DNA from: Fimbriimonadales bacterium
GTDB taxonomy: Bacteria > Armatimonadota > Fimbriimonadia > Fimbriimonadales > Fimbriimonadaceae
Assembly (NCBI GenBank): GCA_026418055.1
Contig: JAOACB010000017.1
Coordinates: 1-36,832, forward strand
DNA: 36,832 nucleotides
Reading direction: 5' to 3'
A program made the position numbers and the translations under genes. Of this stretch, positions 18,090 through 27,831 are shown one piece after another (within the stretch, counting starts at the first letter, position 1; every line of letters begins with the position of its first letter). The notes below the pieces were generated by a model that saw nothing but the letters and a program-made list of their open reading frames with translations, was not told the DNA's origin and did not search any database.

Positions 18090-19151
18090 TCAGTGCCGGA
18101 CGGTGACCAACCCGGGCTGGCCGACCTCGCCGCGCACGGTGATGTAGATCGGCAGAAACTGCTTGACCACCCACACGGCGGTGAGCAAGCGCTCGGTGAG
18201 CACGGGGGTACGGAAGGACACGTCGGTCTCGGCGATCGCGGCGGTGATGAGGAGCTGGTCCGCAAGGTGCTGGTCCACGGTGGCGTCGGACCGGAACCAC
18301 TGCAGAAACTGCTCGAAGGCGCTCTGGGCGACGCTCTCGATGCGCACACCGCGCGCGCCGAGCGCCGTGGCGGACCCGAAGCCGCGCTCGTACTCGGCCC
18401 AGACGGTCACCGAGGCGCCGGGGCCGCGCGCCCGGACGCGCTGCTCCTCGACCTCGAGCAGCATGCCGGCGCTGCGCGCGAGCCTCTGCAGGTGCGCCAC
18501 GCCGCGCCGCCCCACGTCGTCCCCTAGCTCCGCGCAGGTCACGACGGCGCGGAAGTCCACCACGCGGCCTCGGGAGTCCCAAGCGACCCCGTTGAGGGCG
18601 CTCGGCTCGATCTCCGCCCGGATCTGCCCGCGCCCGAAGCGTCCGAAGCCCGCCTCGAGCAGATCCACCGTCGCGTACAGCCCGAAGCGCCGCAGGGCGG
18701 GGACCGTCGTGCCCGCGAAGGCGTCGAACCCCAACACGTTGTTGCCGTGGGTCTCCCCGACCACCGTCACGGTGCCAAGCTGCCCGGCGCGGGCGGCCAC
18801 CGGCAGAAGGGCCGTCAGCACCACCGGCGCCGTGAGGGATCCGGGCCCATCCTCGTCGTCCGGCGGCTCGATGCGCTCCGGGATGGTTCTGGGCAATCTT
18901 GTGGGCAGAAAGCTGAACACATCGGAGCCAGGCTGGGCTCCCACCATCTCGGCGGCGGTGGCTTTGGCCAAGGCGCGGGCGATGGCCAGATCCTCGGCTC
19001 GCAGACCGGGACGCGCCATGCCGGCACGAACGCCCTCGATGCGCACCGGCTGCTGCGTCAGCGCCGACAGCGCCAGAGCCGTGCGCACCAGCGTCGGTCC
19101 GCCCTCGCCGTACGAGCCGTCCAGAACCACAGGGGCGGCGAGCGGCCTCAT
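18090..19151 (-). CDS. rtcA: RNA 3'-terminal phosphate cyclase
   Basis: A 353-residue enzyme that converts RNA 3'-phosphate ends to 2',3'-cyclic phosphates, using ATP through a covalent histidine-AMP. The N-terminal GSYGEGGPTLVRTALALSAL and RAGMARPGLRAEDL match the family. The nucleophile H295 lies in TVDQHLADQLL, matching E. coli RtcA H309. GEGGPT replaces the more usual GEGGGQ, a mild oddity. The ATG shares one base with the upstream stop (TGATG), so translation is coupled to the cysteine-rich membrane protein. The partner ligase RtcB and activator RtcR are not in the window, but the sigma-54 gene, which drives rtcBA in E. coli, is directly downstream. Confidence 0.93.
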   Translation of the reverse strand: MRPLAAPVVLDGSYGEGGPTLVRTALALSALTQQPVRIEGVRAGMARPGLRAEDLAIARALAKATAAEMVGAQPGSDVFSFLPTRLPRTIPERIEPPDDEDGPGSLTAPVVLTALLPVAARAGQLGTVTVVGETHGNNVLGFDAFAGTTVPALRRFGLYATVDLLEAGFGRFGRGQIRAEIEPSALNGVAWDSRGRVVDFRAVVTCAELGDDVGRRGVAHLQRLARSAGMLLEVEEQRVRARGPGASVTVWAEYERGFGSATALGARGVRIESVAQSAFEQFLQWFRSDATVDQHLADQLLITAAIAETDVSFRTPVLTERLLTAVWVVKQFLPIYITVRGEVGQPGLVTVRH

Positions 19152-20233
19152 CAGAGCTTCGCCTTGAAGATCAGGAACTCCACCAGTTTCAGCGAGTAGG
19201 CCAAAGCCACGACCAGCAGGCAGGCGAGCAGCAACGCCTGCACCACGAAGGGCACCTGTTCGGTCAGCAGCCTTTGGCCCTCGCGGTACGTCGCGATGCC
19301 GATGACACGGTCCAGCTGGCGGATCAGGCCCTCCACGCCGCCCAGCATCGGCCTATGGAACAGCGCCACCAGCGCGCCGTAGGAGACGAACAGCATCGGC
19401 ACCGCCAGCCGGTACTTGTGCTTCTGGCGCTCGTTGTAGATGACGCAGGCTCGGCACCGCTCTGCCTTGGCCTCCGCGCTCAGCTTCTGGTTGTAGGGGA
19501 TGAGCCGGAACGCCTCCTCTTGGCTCTTGGGCACGGGGCGACCCTCCATCGCCCCGCGGATCACGTCCTCCTCGCACATGCAGCCCACCCTCTCGCGCCA
19601 GCAGGTTGTCTGGGCATGGTAGATCGGGCAGCGCTCCCGCACGAACTTGCGGCAGTAGGGCAGCTGCCAGCACTTGCCCAGGAACACGTTCTGGAAGTCG
19701 ACCTCCTTGCCGACGTTCCTACCGTAGCGCAAGGCGTCCGCCTTCGCGCCGTACATCGCCCTCAGGCGCATCCGCTGCGCCACGTCCAGCACGATCACCG
19801 CGACAGCCACGAGCCCGAGGAACACGCCCCCGTTTTGGACGGCTCCCAGGGACGCCCGGGCCACCACCGCCGCGACTCCCGAGTCGCCCACCAGCAACGG
19901 AACAACCAGAGGAGCGAAATACAGCAGAGCCGCGCCGATCAGCAACAGGGCTCCCAGCACCTCCTCGCCCCAGAAGAGGTACGCCGACCCGACGCCGACC
20001 GACAGCGCTCCGGCCGCGAGGACCTTGCGCAGGATCTCCACGTTCGCCGCGGCGCGATCGGGGTCCGCCCCGTTGGGCGCCGCGAACAGCACGAACGTGT
20101 ACACGAGCAGGCCGATCGAAACCAAACTGGCCAACAGGCCGCCCCAGAAGACGAACCTCGCTACGGCCTCCAGGAACTGGAAGAACGTCTCCTCCGCGCG
20201 TAGACCGTCTCCCGACGGTGGCCGCCTGCTCAT
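19151..20233 (-). CDS. Membrane protein with a two-CW-like eight-cysteine domain
   Basis: A 360-residue protein I cannot assign to a named function. About four hydrophobic segments lie before residue 155, a soluble cysteine-rich domain follows (about 185-265), then two more hydrophobic segments (about 275-293 and 328-350). The cysteines are C188 (KCW), C194, C202 (CPIY), C211 (TCW), C218, C220 and the pair C260/C263 (ERCRAC). The CW...C...CP.Y...CW...C.C order recalls the two-CW domain found in some signalling proteins, and it could bind metal or an iron-sulfur cluster. The gene lies 9 bases after efp and overlaps rtcA by one base, so it is embedded in a conserved-looking operon. Start ATG at 20233. 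Confidence 0.7.
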   Translation of the reverse strand: MSRRPPSGDGLRAEETFFQFLEAVARFVFWGGLLASLVSIGLLVYTFVLFAAPNGADPDRAAANVEILRKVLAAGALSVGVGSAYLFWGEEVLGALLLIGAALLYFAPLVVPLLVGDSGVAAVVARASLGAVQNGGVFLGLVAVAVIVLDVAQRMRLRAMYGAKADALRYGRNVGKEVDFQNVFLGKCWQLPYCRKFVRERCPIYHAQTTCWRERVGCMCEEDVIRGAMEGRPVPKSQEEAFRLIPYNQKLSAEAKAERCRACVIYNERQKHKYRLAVPMLFVSYGALVALFHRPMLGGVEGLIRQLDRVIGIATYREGQRLLTEQVPFVVQALLLACLLVVALAYSLKLVEFLIFKAKL

Positions 20234-20242
20234 CCGTTCACC

Positions 20243-20812
20243 CTACTTCTTGACGCGCTCGAGATAGGTGTCCGTTCGGGTGTCGACCTTGACGATGTCG
20301 CCCTCGTTGATGTGGAAAGGCACCTGGATCACCGCGCCCGTCTCCAGGGTGGCCGGCTTGGTGCTGCCGCCGCTCACGGTGTCGCCGCGGAAGCCTGGAT
20401 CGGTTTGCACCACCTGCAACTCGACGAAGGTGGGAACCTCGTATCCCAGAACCTCCCCGTTAGCCTCCAGCACCGTCAGCTCCATCTCCTCCTTCAGGTA
20501 CTTGACGCCCTCGCCGATCGCGGACGCCTCCACGGCCTCCTGCTCGTAGGTGTCGAGGTCCATCAGCACGAGCTCGTCGCCCTGCCGATACAGGTACTGC
20601 TTCTTCACGCGCTCGATGAACACCGGCTCGACGCGCTCCCCGGCGCGGAAGGTCTTCTCGATCGTCTGCCCGGTCCTCACCTTCTTCAGGCGGGTGCGCA
20701 CGAACGCCCCGCCCTTGCCGGGCTTCACGTGCTGGAACTCGACGATGGTGAACACCTCGCCGTCCAACAGAATGGCCATGCCGTTCTTGAAGTCGCTGGT
20801 ATCGATTGCCAA
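20243..20812 (-). CDS. efp: Translation elongation factor P
   Basis: A 189-residue factor that rescues ribosomes stalled at proline runs. The KOW-like N-terminal domain starts DTSDFKNGMAILLDGE. The loop HVKPGKGGAF carries K33 at the tip, so a lysine modification (EpmA-like or none) is possible, not the arginine type. The two OB domains follow, ending GDIVKVDTRTDTYLERVKK. Length is standard. The start is a TTG at 20812, with GGGGGA upstream. It heads the efp - membrane protein - rtcA - rpoN unit. A CATAAT box lies 32 bases upstream, with an inverted repeat at the likely transcription start. Confidence 0.97.
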   Translation of the reverse strand: MAIDTSDFKNGMAILLDGEVFTIVEFQHVKPGKGGAFVRTRLKKVRTGQTIEKTFRAGERVEPVFIERVKKQYLYRQGDELVLMDLDTYEQEAVEASAIGEGVKYLKEEMELTVLEANGEVLGYEVPTFVELQVVQTDPGFRGDTVSGGSTKPATLETGAVIQVPFHINEGDIVKVDTRTDTYLERVKK

Positions 20813-20882: not shown

Positions 20883-22013
20883 CTAAAACAGCAGCGGGCG
20901 CTGGCGGCGGTGGATGTTCAGCAGCAGCGCCACGCAACTCAGGCAGAGCCACAGGGCCGTGCCTCCCCTGCTGAGGAACGGCAACCACAGCCCGACCACC
21001 GGAATCAGCTGGAGGTTCATGCTCAGGTTCACGATCGTGTGGAACGCCAGCAGACCCAGCACTCCGGCCGCGAGCATCTGGTCGTACGGATCCTTCGCGC
21101 GGAACATGATCCACCACGCTCGGGCGAACAGCAACCCGTAGAGCGCCAGCACGATCAGGCATCCGACGAACCCACCCTCCTCGCCGACGACCGTGAACAC
21201 GAAGTCCGTGTCTTGCTCGGGGATGAAGCCGCCGGCCTTCTGCTCCCCGTTCAGGAAGCCTACGCCGGTGAGTCCCCCCACGCCGAACGCGATCTCGGCG
21301 CGCGAGGTCTGGAACCTCTCCTTCTGCTCGTCGCCGCCCAGGAGCCCCTGCACCCGCCCCATCTGGTACTCCTTGAACACCCCCGGGATCCGCAGCACGT
21401 ATGCCGCCGCGAGGAAACCCAGCGCCAGGGCGATGGTGAGGAACACGTAGCGCATCGGAACTCCCGCGCCCACGGCGACCGCCAGCCAGATCACGAACAG
21501 CACGATGGTTGCCCCCAAGTGCGGCTGCCGGAACACGAGCAGCAGGATCGGAAGCGCGTGCAGGAACGACAGCGCGAAGGTCTTGGGAGACTGCAGCGCG
21601 TCCCTGCGGCCGTGGAAGAAGTTCGCCAGCGTGATGACCAGCAGGATCTTGGCCATCTCGCTAGGCTGGAACTGGAACGAGCCGATCTCGATCCAGCGCT
21701 GTGCGCCTTTGGCTCGGGAGCCGGCTGCGAGCACCAGCGCCAGCATCCCGACGTTCGTCAGGTACAGCAACGTGCCGAAGCGGCGCCACGCGTGGGGGCT
21801 GACCAGCAGGAAGATGGCGAACGGCACCGCCCCCACCGCGAGCCACGCCAGCTGCTTGGCGAACCCGCCCCCCCACCGACCGCCCTCGAGGCTGAACTGG
21901 GAGAACAGGCCGAACAGCAGGAGGCCGGCCGCGGCCGCGACCAACCACCAGTCCACGCCCCGCTCTCGGGGCCTCGCCTGCGAAACCGGCAGAGGGTTGG
22001 AGAACGCCGCCAA
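20883..22013 (-). CDS. rodA: Rod shape-determining protein RodA (SEDS family)
   Basis: A roughly 376-residue polytopic SEDS protein, a peptidoglycan glycosyltransferase of the cell-elongation machinery. Family motifs are plain: GAQRWIEIGSFQFQPSEMAK, the PEQDTDFVFTVVGEEGGF loop with the key aspartate, and GLWLPFLSRGGTALW near the end. About ten membrane segments are expected. The start is uncertain: I choose the TTG at 22013 because GGAGGG lies 4-5 bases upstream. A TTG at 22025 adds four residues. RodA rather than FtsW is favoured by the GSFQFQPSE and QDTDF forms. It follows the two lipoprotein genes by about 22 bases, so the group forms an envelope operon. No PBP2 or MreBCD gene is in the window. 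Confidence 0.92.
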   Translation of the reverse strand: MAAFSNPLPVSQARPRERGVDWWLVAAAAGLLLFGLFSQFSLEGGRWGGGFAKQLAWLAVGAVPFAIFLLVSPHAWRRFGTLLYLTNVGMLALVLAAGSRAKGAQRWIEIGSFQFQPSEMAKILLVITLANFFHGRRDALQSPKTFALSFLHALPILLLVFRQPHLGATIVLFVIWLAVAVGAGVPMRYVFLTIALALGFLAAAYVLRIPGVFKEYQMGRVQGLLGGDEQKERFQTSRAEIAFGVGGLTGVGFLNGEQKAGGFIPEQDTDFVFTVVGEEGGFVGCLIVLALYGLLFARAWWIMFRAKDPYDQMLAAGVLGLLAFHTIVNLSMNLQLIPVVGLWLPFLSRGGTALWLCLSCVALLLNIHRRQRPLLF

Positions 22014-22035
22014 GGGACCCTCCAACCCTAGCGCT

Positions 22036-22773
22036 TCACTGGCCGACCGACACGGCCTCGACGGTGACCTTGACCGGGTCCTTCTGGCCGGAGACCTTGC
22101 GCTCGACCTCCATCTTCACCGAGCCCAGGCCCTTGACGTACCACGATCGCATTTTGGCGGTCGACTTCTGTCCGTCCTCGATCAGCTCGCCCTGGCCCTC
22201 GATGAGCAAGGCCTCGAACTCTCCGGCGGGAACCTTCACCTTCTCGACCCGGCGCACGACGTACGTGCTGTTGTCCTTGAGTTTCCTGCCCTGAAGGGTG
22301 AACTCGTTGGAGGTGGTCCACCGTTTGCCGGGCGCCAGGCCGTTCGGCAGCTCCAAGACCGGCTTGGGCACCTCGCCGTTGTCCAGCGCCTCCACGTAGA
22401 GGCCGTCCGACCGAAGCAGCAGCGTGGCGCCGGGCAGCGAGGCGAGGCCGCCGGTCCTTTCGACGCGGAAGCGCGGGGCGCCGTCTTTGCTCTCGACCTG
22501 GCGGACCACCACCTCGCCCTCGAGCTTCTGTGTCGAGTTCGAGAAGACCATCGACATCTTGATGGGCTTCGAGTTCCCAAGGCCGTAGTACTCGAAGGCG
22601 TCTTTCTTCAGCTCGTCGGGAACGGGCGGAGGCGGCGGCGCCTTCTCCTCGACCTTGGCTTGGGCGCCCGTCTGGTTCGCCTGCTCGCGGGCGGCGGTTT
22701 CGGGCGCCTTGGCGTCCTTGGTCTGGCATCCGGCCAGCGCGGCGACGATGGCGAGAATCCACAGCTTCCTCAT
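22036..22773 (-). CDS. Lipoprotein B of the SecD-like/rodA operon
   Basis: A 245-residue lipoprotein of unknown function. The signal MRKLWILAIVAALAGC ends in a lipobox (LAGC), followed by a disordered Ala/Glu/Pro linker with six consecutive or near-consecutive prolines (to about residue 52). The rest is beta-rich: SDGLYVEAL, LAPGKRWTTSNEFTLQGRK, VKVPAGEFEALLIEGQGE, MRSWYVKGLGSVKMEVER. This order matches that of the neighbouring lipoprotein A (GIYQL, TGRTFQWKGKG, VDTDMGRMSAFCVETSG, MRSMVWWAPKVGLVRGRM), so the two look like diverged tandem paralogues. It starts 12 bases after lipoprotein A. Confidence 0.75.
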   Translation of the reverse strand: MRKLWILAIVAALAGCQTKDAKAPETAAREQANQTGAQAKVEEKAPPPPPVPDELKKDAFEYYGLGNSKPIKMSMVFSNSTQKLEGEVVVRQVESKDGAPRFRVERTGGLASLPGATLLLRSDGLYVEALDNGEVPKPVLELPNGLAPGKRWTTSNEFTLQGRKLKDNSTYVVRRVEKVKVPAGEFEALLIEGQGELIEDGQKSTAKMRSWYVKGLGSVKMEVERKVSGQKDPVKVTVEAVSVGQ

Positions 22774-22785
22774 GGCTTCATCCGA

Positions 22786-23496
22786 TCACTTGAGCGTGTA
22801 GCTCTTCAGCCGCAGCGTCTGGACCGCACCGAGCTCTCCCCCCGACAGCTCCATCCGCCCCCGCACGAGGCCAACCTTGGGAGCCCACCACACCATCGAG
22901 CGCATCTTCCCCTGGCCTCGCTGGCTGCGGAACGTCCCGCTGGTCTCGACGCAGAACGCCGACATGCGGCCCATGTCCGTGTCGACCTCCTGCGGCCCCA
23001 GGATGCGGTTCTCCAGCGTTCCGGAGCCGGGCGTTCCGTCGGGCATCAGCCCCTTGCCCTTCCACTGGAAGGTGCGGCCGGTGTCGACGGGGAACAGGAT
23101 GCCCGGCTGCTTCGGCTCGTACGCCAGCGGGACACGGCCCGCGGTGAGCTGGTAGATGCCCGTGCTGTCCACGAGCCACGACTGCGTTTCCTGAACCCTG
23201 CCTTCGATGCTGACCTCGATCACGCCCTTGATGCCGTCACCCACCGGCTCGGTCTTGGCGACGCGGAACACGGCCTCGGCCGTGCGCGAGCCCACCTGGT
23301 CGCCCCTTCGCTGCTGGTCCTCCACGGTGTACACCCACTGGTTGCCCACCTGGAGTGGGAACAGCGTGCGTTCCTCGCCCCTGGCCACCACGGCGGGCGG
23401 CACGGACTTCACGGGGGTCGGCTGGTACTCGCCGGATTGCCCGCACCCGGCCAGGACGGCCGACGCGGCGCAGACGATGCAGACGCTTCGCTTCAT
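22786..23496 (-). CDS. Lipoprotein A of the SecD-like/rodA operon
   Basis: A 236-residue lipoprotein of unknown function. The signal MKRSVCIVCAASAVLAGC carries a lipobox. The mature part is beta-rich: FPLQVGNQWVYTVED, STGIYQLTAG, TGRTFQWKGKG, then VDTDMGRMSAFCVETSG and SMVWWAPKVGLVRGRMELS. The 'GNQWVYTV...WWAPKVGLV' layout is common in secreted bacterial proteins of unknown role. The start is set at the ATG at 23496 because the lipoprotein signal begins there and it overlaps the SecD-like stop by four bases (ATGA). Longer upstream frames read into that gene. Confidence 0.78.
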   Translation of the reverse strand: MKRSVCIVCAASAVLAGCGQSGEYQPTPVKSVPPAVVARGEERTLFPLQVGNQWVYTVEDQQRRGDQVGSRTAEAVFRVAKTEPVGDGIKGVIEVSIEGRVQETQSWLVDSTGIYQLTAGRVPLAYEPKQPGILFPVDTGRTFQWKGKGLMPDGTPGSGTLENRILGPQEVDTDMGRMSAFCVETSGTFRSQRGQGKMRSMVWWAPKVGLVRGRMELSGGELGAVQTLRLKSYTLK

Positions 23497-24626
23497 CTTC
23501 CCTTCCCTCGGTTGATCGTATCGACGGCTTCTTGGACGAGCTCCTCGTCCGTCAGGTTGCTGATGGTGACCTCGCGGCCGGGAATCTCCTGCTTGACCCA
23601 CGGCGCGGCGATGGCGGTTCCGTTCACGACGAACAGCAGCTGCGTCCCCTGGTGGAGCTTGCTGTACTTCCAGATGCGCCGCCTCCCCTCGTCGTTCAGG
23701 CGGATGCCGATGGTGAAAACCTCCTTGCCGTTGCCCGCCACGAACTTCGAGTAGCTGGCGGACTCCATGAGCGAGTCGTTCACCACCACCTGAGCGCTGG
23801 ACAGCACCCTGCTCGGCGCCACAGCCATCTCCTCCAGCCGCTTGGGGTCGATCATGCGCTCGATCGACCTGCGGACGTCCTCCTTGCCCGTGGCGCCCTG
23901 TTGGAGCTCCCGCAGCATCTGCAGGTAGGTGCCCTGGATGGCCGCCTGCGTCACCTCGAACTTGTCCTTGTACAGACGCTCCGTGAACGACACGCAGAAG
24001 CGGGGGCGGTACGGCTGCTCGACGATGCCGGTCAGCAGGCGGTCCTGGTCGCCCACCCGCACCTTCACCCGCACCGGCAGCTGGGCCACGATGCCGTTCT
24101 CGATGCTGGAGAGCCGGATCTCGTTCAGCGGCGTGCCGTCCAGCCGCACGTTCAGGTCCCGCTCCAGCTTGGCCCGCAGCGCGGGGTCTCCCTCGACGGC
24201 TTTGCGCAGCTGTTCGGCGGTCCAGTACACCTGCACGGTCGGCCAGTCTCGGTCGTTGCGGCGGATGTCGTTCATGAACATCACGAACCGGCCGAGCGGC
24301 TTCTCGTCGCCCTGCAGGATCGCGACGAGGTCGCGGATGGACAGCTGCTTGCGCTTGGCCTGCTCGACGGCCTCCCCGGACTCGTCGGCACCCTCCTGCC
24401 CGTACTCGGATCCCTCGCCCTGCACCAGCCCTGCGATGCGGTTCGCCACCACGATCCGGAAGCCGGCGCCGGGATCGATGCCGAGCAGCGTGGCCTTTCC
24501 CGGGGCGAGGTCCGGGAACTGCTGACTGAGAACCATGCGGTCCGTCACGAACTTGTAGCCGAACACGACCGCGGCCGTGATCGCGACGAAACCGATGGCG
24601 ATCTTCTGCGCTGCCCGCAACCTCAC
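23493..24626 (-). CDS. SecD periplasmic-head-like membrane-anchored protein
   Basis: A 377-residue protein with one N-terminal membrane segment (about residues 8-25) and a large extracytoplasmic part. The C-terminal 110 residues resemble the P1 head of SecD: FTIGIRLNDEGRRRIWKYSK, TQLLFVVNGTAIAAPWVKQEI, REVTISNLTDEELVQEAVDTIN. The six-helix SecD channel is absent, so it cannot itself be SecD. The middle (about 120-290) has no recognised motif. The start is a GTG at 24626 with AGGAG six bases upstream. It heads the operon with two lipoproteins and rodA, behind its own TACAAT promoter. A role as a chaperone or envelope-assembly factor is a guess. Confidence 0.65.
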   Translation of the reverse strand: MRLRAAQKIAIGFVAITAAVVFGYKFVTDRMVLSQQFPDLAPGKATLLGIDPGAGFRIVVANRIAGLVQGEGSEYGQEGADESGEAVEQAKRKQLSIRDLVAILQGDEKPLGRFVMFMNDIRRNDRDWPTVQVYWTAEQLRKAVEGDPALRAKLERDLNVRLDGTPLNEIRLSSIENGIVAQLPVRVKVRVGDQDRLLTGIVEQPYRPRFCVSFTERLYKDKFEVTQAAIQGTYLQMLRELQQGATGKEDVRRSIERMIDPKRLEEMAVAPSRVLSSAQVVVNDSLMESASYSKFVAGNGKEVFTIGIRLNDEGRRRIWKYSKLHQGTQLLFVVNGTAIAAPWVKQEIPGREVTISNLTDEELVQEAVDTINRGKGR

Positions 24627-24692: not shown

Positions 24693-26381
24693 TCATTCGC
24701 TCGGGTTGTAGACCGCGTACAAACCGGACGCTAGGCCGACGGTCGGCACGGCGATGCCCGCTGCAAGGGCCACGGCCGGCCAGGCCGCCAGCCACCAGGG
24801 CACCCCCAGCACTCCCAGGCCGACGAACGCGCCGATGGGCGGCGCGCAGGCGATCACCACCCCCAGCAGCATCATCAGACGGCGAAACTGCACCCCAGTG
24901 GCGTCGTCCTCGTCCGGGAAGAGGAAGCTCACAGCCAGCACCGCCGCGCAGATCAGGTACGAGAGTCCCGCGGCCAGCACGCAGGCCCCCAGCAGCACGT
25001 CCCACCAACCCGGCTGGATCGCCGCCAGCACCAGGCACGGGATCCAAACCACCGCCAGCCCGTACAGGGACTGCGCGGCGAGCTCGGCCGCCACCACCCG
25101 CCAGGGAGCGAACGGCATCGCCTTGACCACGTCCACGCGCCGCAGCATCTCCATGCAGCCCGTCAGCGAGGCGGTCATCGACACGTTGAGCAGGCCGAGT
25201 CCCACCATCGCCAGCGAGAAGATCGGACCCGCCCGACCCAGCTCGCGCTGCCCGCCCACGAACGCCGGCAACAGCGCCACCACGCCCATCAGGAACCCGA
25301 GGAACATCAGCCCGCGCGTCCCGCCGCGACCCTGCACCAGCAGCTCCTTCCACAGCAGCCCTGCCACGCCGCGCCACCGCCGACGGTGCCACCACCCCTG
25401 CCGTCGGACCCTGATCTTGCCCTCGCGGGCGCGCTGGGAGGCGATCGCCAAGAGGTCTCCCCGCCGACCGAGCTCGCGCGCCTCGGACTGCCGGAACGCT
25501 CTGGCAGCCGCCTGATCGTACATCCAACCCACCTGGGAGAACGCGACGCGCAGCGCCGCGGCCATGACGGCGAAGAGGATCCCGGCCCCCAGAGCCGCCG
25601 AGGCCCACGACCCCGTGATCGGCGCCATCGTGATCATCGAGGCGCAGCTCGCGGTGAAGAACGCCGCCCGAAGGATCGGGTCGTGCGAGAACCGCACCGC
25701 GTCCTGAACGCTTCCGGCCGCCAGCAGACCATAGACCGCGTAGGCGGCGACCGCAAGGAAGAGCCCCACCGTTCCGCCTACCAGCAACCTCTTGTTGCGA
25801 TCGCTCTGCAGGTCGCTGCGGTTCACGAACAGGCTGGCCGCATAGGCGATGGCCACCCAGGTCAGGGCCATCAGGATCCAGGACACGGTCATCGCCCGCC
25901 CGACCAAGCCGGCTGTCTCCGGGTTGGGAACCTCGCGGAAGATCATCCGCCATCCGCTCGACACCGGCCGGAATGCGATCAGCACGAGGAACAGCGGGAG
26001 GATGAGCGTTCCCAGGTACTCCCGCACGATGCGGAACACCAGCACTGCCTTCGCGGGAATCGGCGTGGCGAACAGAACGTCCACGTCGGCGGGCTTGAAG
26101 CCGCCTCGGTAAGCGAAGATGCCCAGCGCCAGCATCAGGCTCAGCGCGGAGAACCATCCGAACAGCACCGCCTCGACGAGGTCCAAGGCGGGAAAGTCGA
26201 GCTGCAGCCCCGGACCCGTGGGAGCCGCGCCCCGCCCCAGACCGGGCCGAATGAAGAACCAAAAGTAGTACGACAGCAGGAACAGCAGCCCGATCAACCT
26301 GCGCGGAGACGTCAGCGCGCGGCGGACGCCGTTCACGAGCGTCCTAAACGTCAAAAACAGCAGGGGTCTGAGCGCTTTCAT
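24693..26381 (-). CDS. ABC exporter permease (putative ABC exporter family)
   Basis: A 562-residue polytopic protein, the membrane half of an ABC exporter. It begins MKALRPLLFLTFRTLVNGVR and shows roughly ten to twelve hydrophobic segments. The ADVDVLFATPIPAKAVL stretch near residue 100 is typical of the putative ABC exporter group of permeases (Pfam ABC_export). Its 5' end overlaps the ATPase gene by 38 bases, which strongly links the two products. The substrate cannot be told from sequence. Confidence 0.85.
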   Translation of the reverse strand: MKALRPLLFLTFRTLVNGVRRALTSPRRLIGLLFLLSYYFWFFIRPGLGRGAAPTGPGLQLDFPALDLVEAVLFGWFSALSLMLALGIFAYRGGFKPADVDVLFATPIPAKAVLVFRIVREYLGTLILPLFLVLIAFRPVSSGWRMIFREVPNPETAGLVGRAMTVSWILMALTWVAIAYAASLFVNRSDLQSDRNKRLLVGGTVGLFLAVAAYAVYGLLAAGSVQDAVRFSHDPILRAAFFTASCASMITMAPITGSWASAALGAGILFAVMAAALRVAFSQVGWMYDQAAARAFRQSEARELGRRGDLLAIASQRAREGKIRVRRQGWWHRRRWRGVAGLLWKELLVQGRGGTRGLMFLGFLMGVVALLPAFVGGQRELGRAGPIFSLAMVGLGLLNVSMTASLTGCMEMLRRVDVVKAMPFAPWRVVAAELAAQSLYGLAVVWIPCLVLAAIQPGWWDVLLGACVLAAGLSYLICAAVLAVSFLFPDEDDATGVQFRRLMMLLGVVIACAPPIGAFVGLGVLGVPWWLAAWPAVALAAGIAVPTVGLASGLYAVYNPSE

Positions 26382-27108
26382 CGGTGAGCTTGAGGAACAC
26401 CTCCTCGAGGGTTCCCGACTCGAGCTGGGAGGCCTGGCGCAGCTCCTGCAGCGTGCCCTCGGCCACCTTGCGGCCGCGCGCGAGGATCACCACGCGGTCG
26501 CACAGGACCTCGGCCGTGTCGAGCAGGTGGGTGGAGACGAGCACGGCGCAACCGCGATCCCGCGCGTTGCGGATCTCTCGCTTCAGCTCGGCGGCCCCGG
26601 CGGGATCGATGCCGATCAAGGGCTCGTCGAACAGCATCACTCGCGCCTCGTGCACGAGAGCGCAGGCCACCGCGACCTTCTGGCGCATGCCCTTGCTCAG
26701 CGTGGCCACCAGCTGGTCGCGCTTCTCCGTGAGGTTGTAGCGGGCGAGCAGGTCGTTCCGCACGCGCTCGTACACGTCGAGGCTGTCGTAGCACATCGCG
26801 ACGAACCGGAGGTGCTCGTCCACGGTCAGCAGCTCGTACAGCGAGGGCACCTCCGGCACGAAGGCCAGCGCCGCCTTCGCGCGGGCCGTGTCGCGCTCCA
26901 GATCGTGCCCGCAGATCCGGACCGTTCCGGCCGTGGGCTTCAGAATGCCGGCGATGGAACGCAGGGCCGTGGTCTTGCCAGCGCCGTTGGGCCCCAGCAA
27001 GCCCACGATCTCGCCTCCCCGGATCTCCAAATCGAGAGCGTCGACCGCGCGGAACTTCTTGTACTGCTTGACGAGCCCCCGAACCTCGAGGAGCGGCAGG
27101 TCTTCCAC
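26344..27108 (-). CDS. ABC exporter ATP-binding protein
   Basis: A 254-residue ATPase that powers the downstream permease. Walker A is GPNGAGKTT (residues 39-47), the signature is LSKGMRQKV (137-145), with LSKGM in place of LSGGQ as is common in exporters of the CcmA type, Walker B is VMLFDEP (157-163), and the switch histidine is in VSTHLL. The start is a GTG at 27108, 7 bases after a TAAACC box, so the mRNA may be leaderless. Its 3' end overlaps the permease gene by 38 bases. Confidence 0.94.
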   Translation of the reverse strand: MEDLPLLEVRGLVKQYKKFRAVDALDLEIRGGEIVGLLGPNGAGKTTALRSIAGILKPTAGTVRICGHDLERDTARAKAALAFVPEVPSLYELLTVDEHLRFVAMCYDSLDVYERVRNDLLARYNLTEKRDQLVATLSKGMRQKVAVACALVHEARVMLFDEPLIGIDPAGAAELKREIRNARDRGCAVLVSTHLLDTAEVLCDRVVILARGRKVAEGTLQELRQASQLESGTLEEVFLKLTDESAQTPAVFDV

Positions 27109-27210: not shown

Positions 27211-27831
27211 TCACCGAGCGCGCAGCCTGCCCCTGGCCAGCAAGCCGGCGAGGAAAGGCAGCGCGGCCGCCGGACCCGGCACCACTGGAACCGCCGTCGG
27301 CTCGTTGATCCGGATGTCGTCGAACGCGGCTTGTCTGCCTGAGCCTGACATGGTTGGATCGTCCGTGCCGTTGGACGTTGCGAACCAGACTTCGTCGATC
27401 CCAGACCAGTCGAGACGCACCAGCTTGGGGCGACGAGTGTCCAGAACAACCGTCTTCGCTTGGACCACCGTGCCGTTCCGATATCCGGTGATGTCCATCA
27501 CAAGGTCTCGGTTCCACGCGGCCGTCAAGAACAGGCTGTTGAGGGTGAACGTCTCTCCACCCGTCCAGAAGCCAGCCGGATCTGCGAATCCGTTGTAACC
27601 TACGCAGCTGCTGGAAACGCAACCGTTGTGGTAGCCGCTTGGGTACGTGGAGAACCGCGACGTATCCAGCACCCTGAAGAAGAAACTCCAAGAGAAACCG
27701 CCGTAGCCGTCTGGGATGTCGCCCCAGATGGGCCCGGAGTCGCTCAAGATGCCTTCGAAGTCGAGCACCACCGCAGCTGCGGGAGGTGCGACGGCGATCG
27801 CAGCTGCGCAGAGCGCCAGAAACCTCTTCAT
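27211..27831 (-). CDS. Secreted protein with a PEP-CTERM-like sorting tail
   Basis: A 206-residue exported protein. An N-terminal signal peptide (MKRFLALCAAAIAVAPPAAA) is followed by a beta-rich region (VVLDFEGILSD, GFSWSFFFRVLD) and a pair of cysteines at GCVSSSC. The C-terminus is VVPGPAAALPFLAGLLARGRLRAR in pieces: a Pro-containing motif, a hydrophobic helix and a basic tail, which is the layout of exosortase-sorted PEP-CTERM proteins in a VPxPAA variant. No exosortase gene is in the window. It has a strong AAGGAGG ribosome-binding site, a TACAAT -10 and a leader of about 55 bases. Confidence 0.82.
   Translation of the reverse strand: MKRFLALCAAAIAVAPPAAAVVLDFEGILSDSGPIWGDIPDGYGGFSWSFFFRVLDTSRFSTYPSGYHNGCVSSSCVGYNGFADPAGFWTGGETFTLNSLFLTAAWNRDLVMDITGYRNGTVVQAKTVVLDTRRPKLVRLDWSGIDEVWFATSNGTDDPTMSGSGRQAAFDDIRINEPTAVPVVPGPAAALPFLAGLLARGRLRAR

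Follow-up and report, generated by a model that had tools for sequence, protein, structure and literature searches.

A SecD-type head domain encoded with predicted lipoproteins and rodA in a conserved locus of the Fimbriimonadaceae

What would a protein that ends in the P1 head of SecD do without the SecD channel, when it is encoded directly ahead of lipoproteins and rodA? The question is raised by a stretch of Fimbriimonadales DNA of 36,832 nucleotides (contig JAOACB010000017.1 of assembly GCA_026418055.1), which is referred to as a whole as the window. An earlier note, made from the sequence alone, had described a single-pass protein with a SecD P1-like head overlapping the first of two tandem lipoproteins, which looked like diverged copies of each other, with rodA following. 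It read the set as an envelope-assembly module linked to cell elongation and matched it to no known system. That last point held, as no known system was found in the libraries searched and no matching arrangement of known domain families in the papers searched. Judged from sequence, the locus looks like an undescribed envelope-building set.

Gene Content of the Locus

The host assembly comprises 2.89 Mb in 135 contigs, and among named records an uncultured Fimbriimonadaceae bacterium and an Armatimonadetes MAG come nearest to it. On the minus strand, the order of transcription is ABC ATPase, ABC permease, secH, lipoprotein A, lipoprotein B, rodA and efp (Table 1), where secH is a provisional name coined for the SecD-head gene in the present analysis only. 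The overlap noted earlier between secH and the first lipoprotein gene amounts to 4 nt, with the stop of secH running into the ATG of A (AGATGAAG). A scan for promoters and terminators returned none above chance level. The genes of the operon are presumed to be co-transcribed.

Table 1. Features of the secH locus and its neighbors in the window.
Feature	Positions	Strand	Description
ABC exporter ATPase	26344-27108	-	PF00005, E 4.8e-30; overlaps the permease gene
ABC exporter membrane subunit	24693-26381	-	PF16962; 66 nt upstream of secH
secH	23493-24626	-	GTG start, 377 aa; PF22599, hhalign match to SecD
Lipoprotein A	22786-23496	-	Lipobox LAGC, FPLxxGNQW motif, diverged DUF3108-like domain
Lipoprotein B	22036-22773	-	Lipobox LAGC, DUF3108-like, YmcC-like fold by model
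rodA frame	20883-22025	-	380 aa; SEDS glycosyltransferase; PF01098
efp	20243-20812	-	After rodA in the window

Two other minus-strand genes of the window were recorded in passing. The gene at 27211-27831 encodes a small secreted protein whose C-terminal VPGPAAALPFLAGLLARGRLRAR tail resembles a PEP-CTERM sorting signal, and among the compared loci it occurs in the window genus only. Positions 19151-20233, flanked by efp and a gene for an RNA 3'-phosphate cyclase, encode a 360-aa protein that has several hydrophobic segments, a stretch rich in cysteine (CWQLPYCRKFVRERCPIYHAQTTCWRERVGCMC) and no significant family match in Pfam or NCBIfam. Its neighborhood is retained within the genus.

The SecD Head of SecH

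SecH consists of an N-terminal membrane segment, an extracytoplasmic middle region and a C-terminal SecD P1-head domain (residues ~272-370). The head family PF22599 matched residues 274-362 of the window protein at E 1.9e-5, with 25.0 bits against a cut-off of 27, and rose above the cut-off (27.4 bits) in the six-frame search; 36 of 47 SecH orthologues matched it, at best with E 4.6e-9. When SecH was compared by hhalign with a profile built on 28 SecD proteins of relatives, residues ~272-370, and only these, aligned, at a probability of 95.6% and E 1.1e-8. The probability stayed below 1% for the N-terminal and middle parts of SecH, and it was at most 0.5% in five controls in which the columns of the whole SecD profile had been shuffled. 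Searched against all PDB sequences, a profile of the 47 orthologues retrieved Thermus SecDF alone, and weakly (3aqo, E 0.013; 3aqp, E 0.14). The part shared with the SecD/SecDF head covers the C-terminal ~98 residues, in which a GVAIAAPxI-like stretch of SecH aligns opposite a DNQVISIAPLE-like stretch of SecD. The domain is a SecD P1 head.

Nothing else of SecD was detected. Unlike SecD, SecH has no detected similarity to the P1 base and no membrane helices 2-6; the RND-type six-helix channel domain and a SecF partner are absent from it, and the protein ends after the head. The full-length SecD model TIGR01129 scored 18.6 bits on the window protein against a cut-off of 244.4. In a hydropathy scan, the N-terminal hydrophobic segment exceeded the threshold in 32 of 55 full-length members, while additional membrane segments were predicted in only five of the 55, all of them marginal and inside the head. 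Because of these profile and hydropathy results, SecH most probably spans the membrane once or is signal-anchored, and carries a SecD head without the channel, in agreement with the earlier description. An AlphaFold model built from three close sequences reached a pLDDT of 36, too low to be of use. In one orthologue (G010), the match to the SecD model started at model position 1 (E 5.5e-7).

Several other identities for SecH were considered and set aside. A full P1 domain, with base and head, found no support beyond the head in the profile comparison. The N-terminal LLGIDPGAGFRI had been likened to the GLDxxGG motif of SecD, a likeness that is missing in the f2 and f8 relatives (the labels f1 to f25 denote families) and was not scored by the profile. 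A truncated or broken SecD is also out: SecH was found in 58 of the 61 Fimbriimonadaceae genomes searched, and a complete SecDF coexists with it. A SecD match was present in all 61 genomes and above the curated cut-off in 58, and the host genome itself encodes a complete SecDF in an 846-aa gene at C41, so the true secD does lie elsewhere. A plasmid search with SecH gave no match.

Lipoproteins A to D

A and B each carry a lipobox and are predicted to be lipoproteins; the lipobox Cys is invariant in the orthologue alignments of both (39 of 39 aligned sequences for A). As paralogues they are detectable by profile only. Pairwise BLAST of A against B returned nothing (E 2.4), whereas profile-profile comparison aligned 229 columns with 99.4% probability (E 8.7e-22), which bears out the suspicion that they are diverged copies. 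Profiles also related A to C, A to D, B to C and B to D. Lipoprotein matches were found in 55 loci, with ABCD in 34, ABD in 14 and AB in two; the window genus has A and B only. In the tree, A, B, C and D form four groups that are nearly pure for gene position, which suggests specialized subunits of one assembly. C has a signal-peptide-like start and no lipobox, and D usually has a lipobox. The A and B of the window are the remainder of these four position-specific paralogues. Both lipoproteins of the module in the earlier note are real, but the module is a reduced form of a four-gene set, and the upstream ABC exporter had been missed. The tree separated A and C from B and D with a support of 0.996. 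A duplication of an A-B pair into A-B-C-D is only a tentative reading of this split, since profile scores do not favor A-C and B-D over A-B.

The fold of B could be assigned with the help of a model. PF21347 (DUF3108-like) matched the window B at E 3.7e-5 (24.1 bits against a cut-off of 27) and 40 of 45 B orthologues at E 0.01 or better; on the window A it scored 12.1 bits, under the gathering score, and it matched eight of 39 A orthologues. A profile of B found 4fvs (E 5.5e-7) and 3fzx (E 1.2e-6) in the PDB. The B model (pLDDT 71.6) superposed on these two Bacteroidales structures with Z 13.3 over 178 residues at 3.8 Å, and the title of 3fzx names a YmcC-like fold. B is accordingly predicted, on the strength of its model, to be a YmcC-like beta-barrel, and A would share the fold through its profile homology to B. 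With the PF21347 family B has in common the profile hit to 4fvs, the modeled fold and the lipoprotein form; the window set differs from that family in being of a four-paralogue operon type with secH. The general fold of the B model is also shared with GfcB (YmcC), the lipoprotein of the E. coli group 4 capsule (Z 8.1 to 2in5), a likeness that rests on fold and not on sequence similarity. None of gfcC, gfcD, gfcE and etk was among the conserved neighbors, which are the ABC exporter, secH, A-D, rodA and an FtsK-like gene. Weaker matches of the B model to LolA (Z 7.5), LolA3 (Z 7.7) and LmcA fell in a range of Z 7.5-8.2, below the clear YmcC-like matches, and values under 8 may reflect a common barrel arrangement. 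Foldseek placed LolA-like proteins at low ranks, and Pfam assigned none of A-D to LolA or LolB.

Some other genomes of the phylum have further clusters of A/B/C/D-like, DUF3108-type genes that do not lie with secH (L167, 6102-11027; L166, 6288-7962).

Conservation of Gene Order and the Link to rodA

The window RodA matched PF01098 at E 1.6e-75; its best NCBIfam match was TIGR02210 with 294.7 bits, below the cut-off of 336.7, and an FtsW-type paralogue is encoded elsewhere in the genome (C97). Translation of rodA probably starts at the inner TTG near 22013, since the two homologues from the same genus begin at this point with GTG (MAAFSNPL, MASFSNPL).

Within the Fimbriimonadaceae, the genes keep to one order, secH-A-B-(C)-(D)-rodA, and rodA follows the lipoproteins on the same strand in all 47 loci that had enough downstream sequence to be testable. 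Around this constant core the flanks change. An FtsK-like gene (by sequence) comes after rodA in only 16 of 45 family loci, the window having efp at that place, and the gap rule finds an ABC permease adjoining secH in 31 of 49, to which locus L067, missed by the rule, adds a 32nd. Because a constant run of secH, lipoproteins and rodA stands against these changing flanks, the comparison gives the best evidence that selection holds the three together in the Fimbriimonadaceae. Constitutive co-transcription would likewise keep the gene order, with no joint function needed.

The association with rodA is confined to the Fimbriimonadaceae. Family f5 has a complete secH-A-B-C-D with rodA adjacent in none of six loci, and rodA does not adjoin secH and the lipoproteins in the single f3 locus either. 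Conversely, genus g29, with reduced genomes of 1.5 Mb, retains rodA and MreB and has lost secH and the lipoproteins, and family f2 has rodA and MreB with the lipoprotein set absent. Since rodA occurs without the set in g29 and the set without adjacent rodA in f5 and f3, RodA does not require the set and the set need not adjoin rodA. Of the proposed link to cell elongation, what stands is the adjacency of rodA in the Fimbriimonadaceae (47 of 47), as the earlier note had ordered the genes; a general link does not. The two g29 genomes, L152 and L153, are near-complete Fimbriimonadaceae genomes, and in L152 rodA adjoins a gyrB-like gene.

SecH appears to exist independently of the lipoproteins in other families. 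Short secH-like genes occur among unrelated neighbors in f2, f8, f12 and f25, with neither A-D nor rodA near them in the stretches read.

The ABC exporter is best described, on gene content, as an accessory and dispensable part. It also lies beside secH in f3 (L092) and in one f5 locus (L098), and its ATPase is DrrA-like by NCBIfam, below the cut-off. Ten near-complete family genomes had no recognizable exporter of the PF16962 kind, so an essential role is out.

Possible Role of the Set

We tentatively read SecH as a dock or holder, a plausible role that we would still put somewhat short of an even chance: the SecD-like head would dock or chaperone a hetero-set of envelope lipoproteins that is co-expressed with RodA. 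SecH, whose head is a homologue of the P1 head with which SecD binds substrate, would be anchored in the inner membrane and face the periplasm, and would hold the lipoproteins, or their unfolded or extended client, on the outer side of that membrane. The lipid-anchored YmcC-like beta-barrels A-D (here A and B) could then assemble the envelope as a hetero-oligomer. In loci with the ABC exporter upstream, it would supply or export a substrate. Co-transcription of rodA would time this envelope step with cell-wall elongation in the Fimbriimonadaceae, and physical contact with SecH would be unnecessary for such coupling.

Two precedents make docking the most economical reading. In SecD, the P1 head has a cavity that binds substrate, and it touches PpiD, a periplasmic chaperone anchored in the membrane (PMC11470409). 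GfcB, the YmcC homologue of E. coli, pairs with GfcC as a 100 nM heterodimer and also binds GfcD, a protein of the outer membrane (PMC8592465). The restriction of SecD homology to the head, the fixed gene order, the 4-nt overlap and the A-D groups also favor docking; the secH-like genes apart from A-D and rodA and the dispensable exporter count against it. The fuller proposal of a new inner-membrane-to-periplasm complex of Fimbriimonadales, in which a stand-alone SecD-type head serves as dock or holdase for a four-paralogue YmcC-like hetero-oligomer and assembly is tied to RodA-driven growth in one family, is doubtful, though worth entertaining. If true, the substrate head of SecD has been reused outside SecDF and permanently teamed with a set of lipoproteins, in a phylum that has received little study and some of whose lineages were inferred to be diderm from what their genomes contain (PMC5629042). 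The operon is near-universal in the Fimbriimonadaceae, small and naturally split (AB, ABD or ABCD, with or without the exporter), which makes its logic testable across lineages.

A somewhat unlikely alternative places SecH at the Sec translocon as an accessory: a SecD partner consisting of the head only would catch exported proteins, and lipoproteins especially, as they leave SecY and hand them on, and A-D would be no more than co-expressed clients. Homology to the SecD P1 head only would fit this, as would the secH-like genes apart from lipoproteins in other families; with SecDF in the same genomes, SecH would add to it and not replace it. However, secH had no sec gene neighborhood in the loci read, the papers searched held no stand-alone SecD head of such a role, and a secH that is strictly paired with A-D in f1 and f5 calls for a more specific role.

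It is unlikely that SecH and the lipoproteins are accessories of the elongasome that bind or regulate RodA/PBP2 or bring wall polymer. The invariable position of rodA directly downstream in the family, where it closes the conserved set, speaks for this; the persistence of rodA and MreB without secH and A-D in g29, their occurrence without the lipoprotein set in f2 and the rodA-free neighborhoods of f5 and f3 speak against it. The elongasome partners lie outside the operon: no cluster of rodA with mreBCD/PBP2 was found in the window, and mreB is on separate contigs (C22, C74).

A weak and quite improbable proposal is that the exporter, SecH and LolA/LolB-like lipoproteins move hydrophobic cargo to the outer membrane in place of Lol, in a lineage that has no evident canonical LolA. 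In its favor are the weaker fold similarity of B to LolA-type proteins, the adjacency of an exporter in most loci, and a LolA family (PF03548) above cut-off in only two of 15 genomes tested, the window's own falling below it (best 20.2 bits). Against it are a permease of the PF16962 (ABC_export) type and not the LolCDE type, its absence from ten near-complete genomes that retain SecH and lipoproteins, and the missing Pfam assignments of A-D.

Neighbors of secH-like Genes in Other Families

The secH-like gene of f12 has an aminotransferase-like gene ahead of it, and in f3 the exporter and secH are separated by a class V aminotransferase; since this neighbor is found in both, common descent of the f12 and f3 loci is suggested. 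A class V aminotransferase gene was located directly upstream of secH or a secH-like gene in three loci of two distant families (L092, 10601-11743; L158, 7896-9041; L096, 5707-6924), the call resting on Pfam in L092 and on resemblance in L158 and L096. In f2 (L094 and L154-L157), several of the short secH-like genes have an MqnD-like gene (RLGHSPDADDAFMFWAL start) directly downstream.
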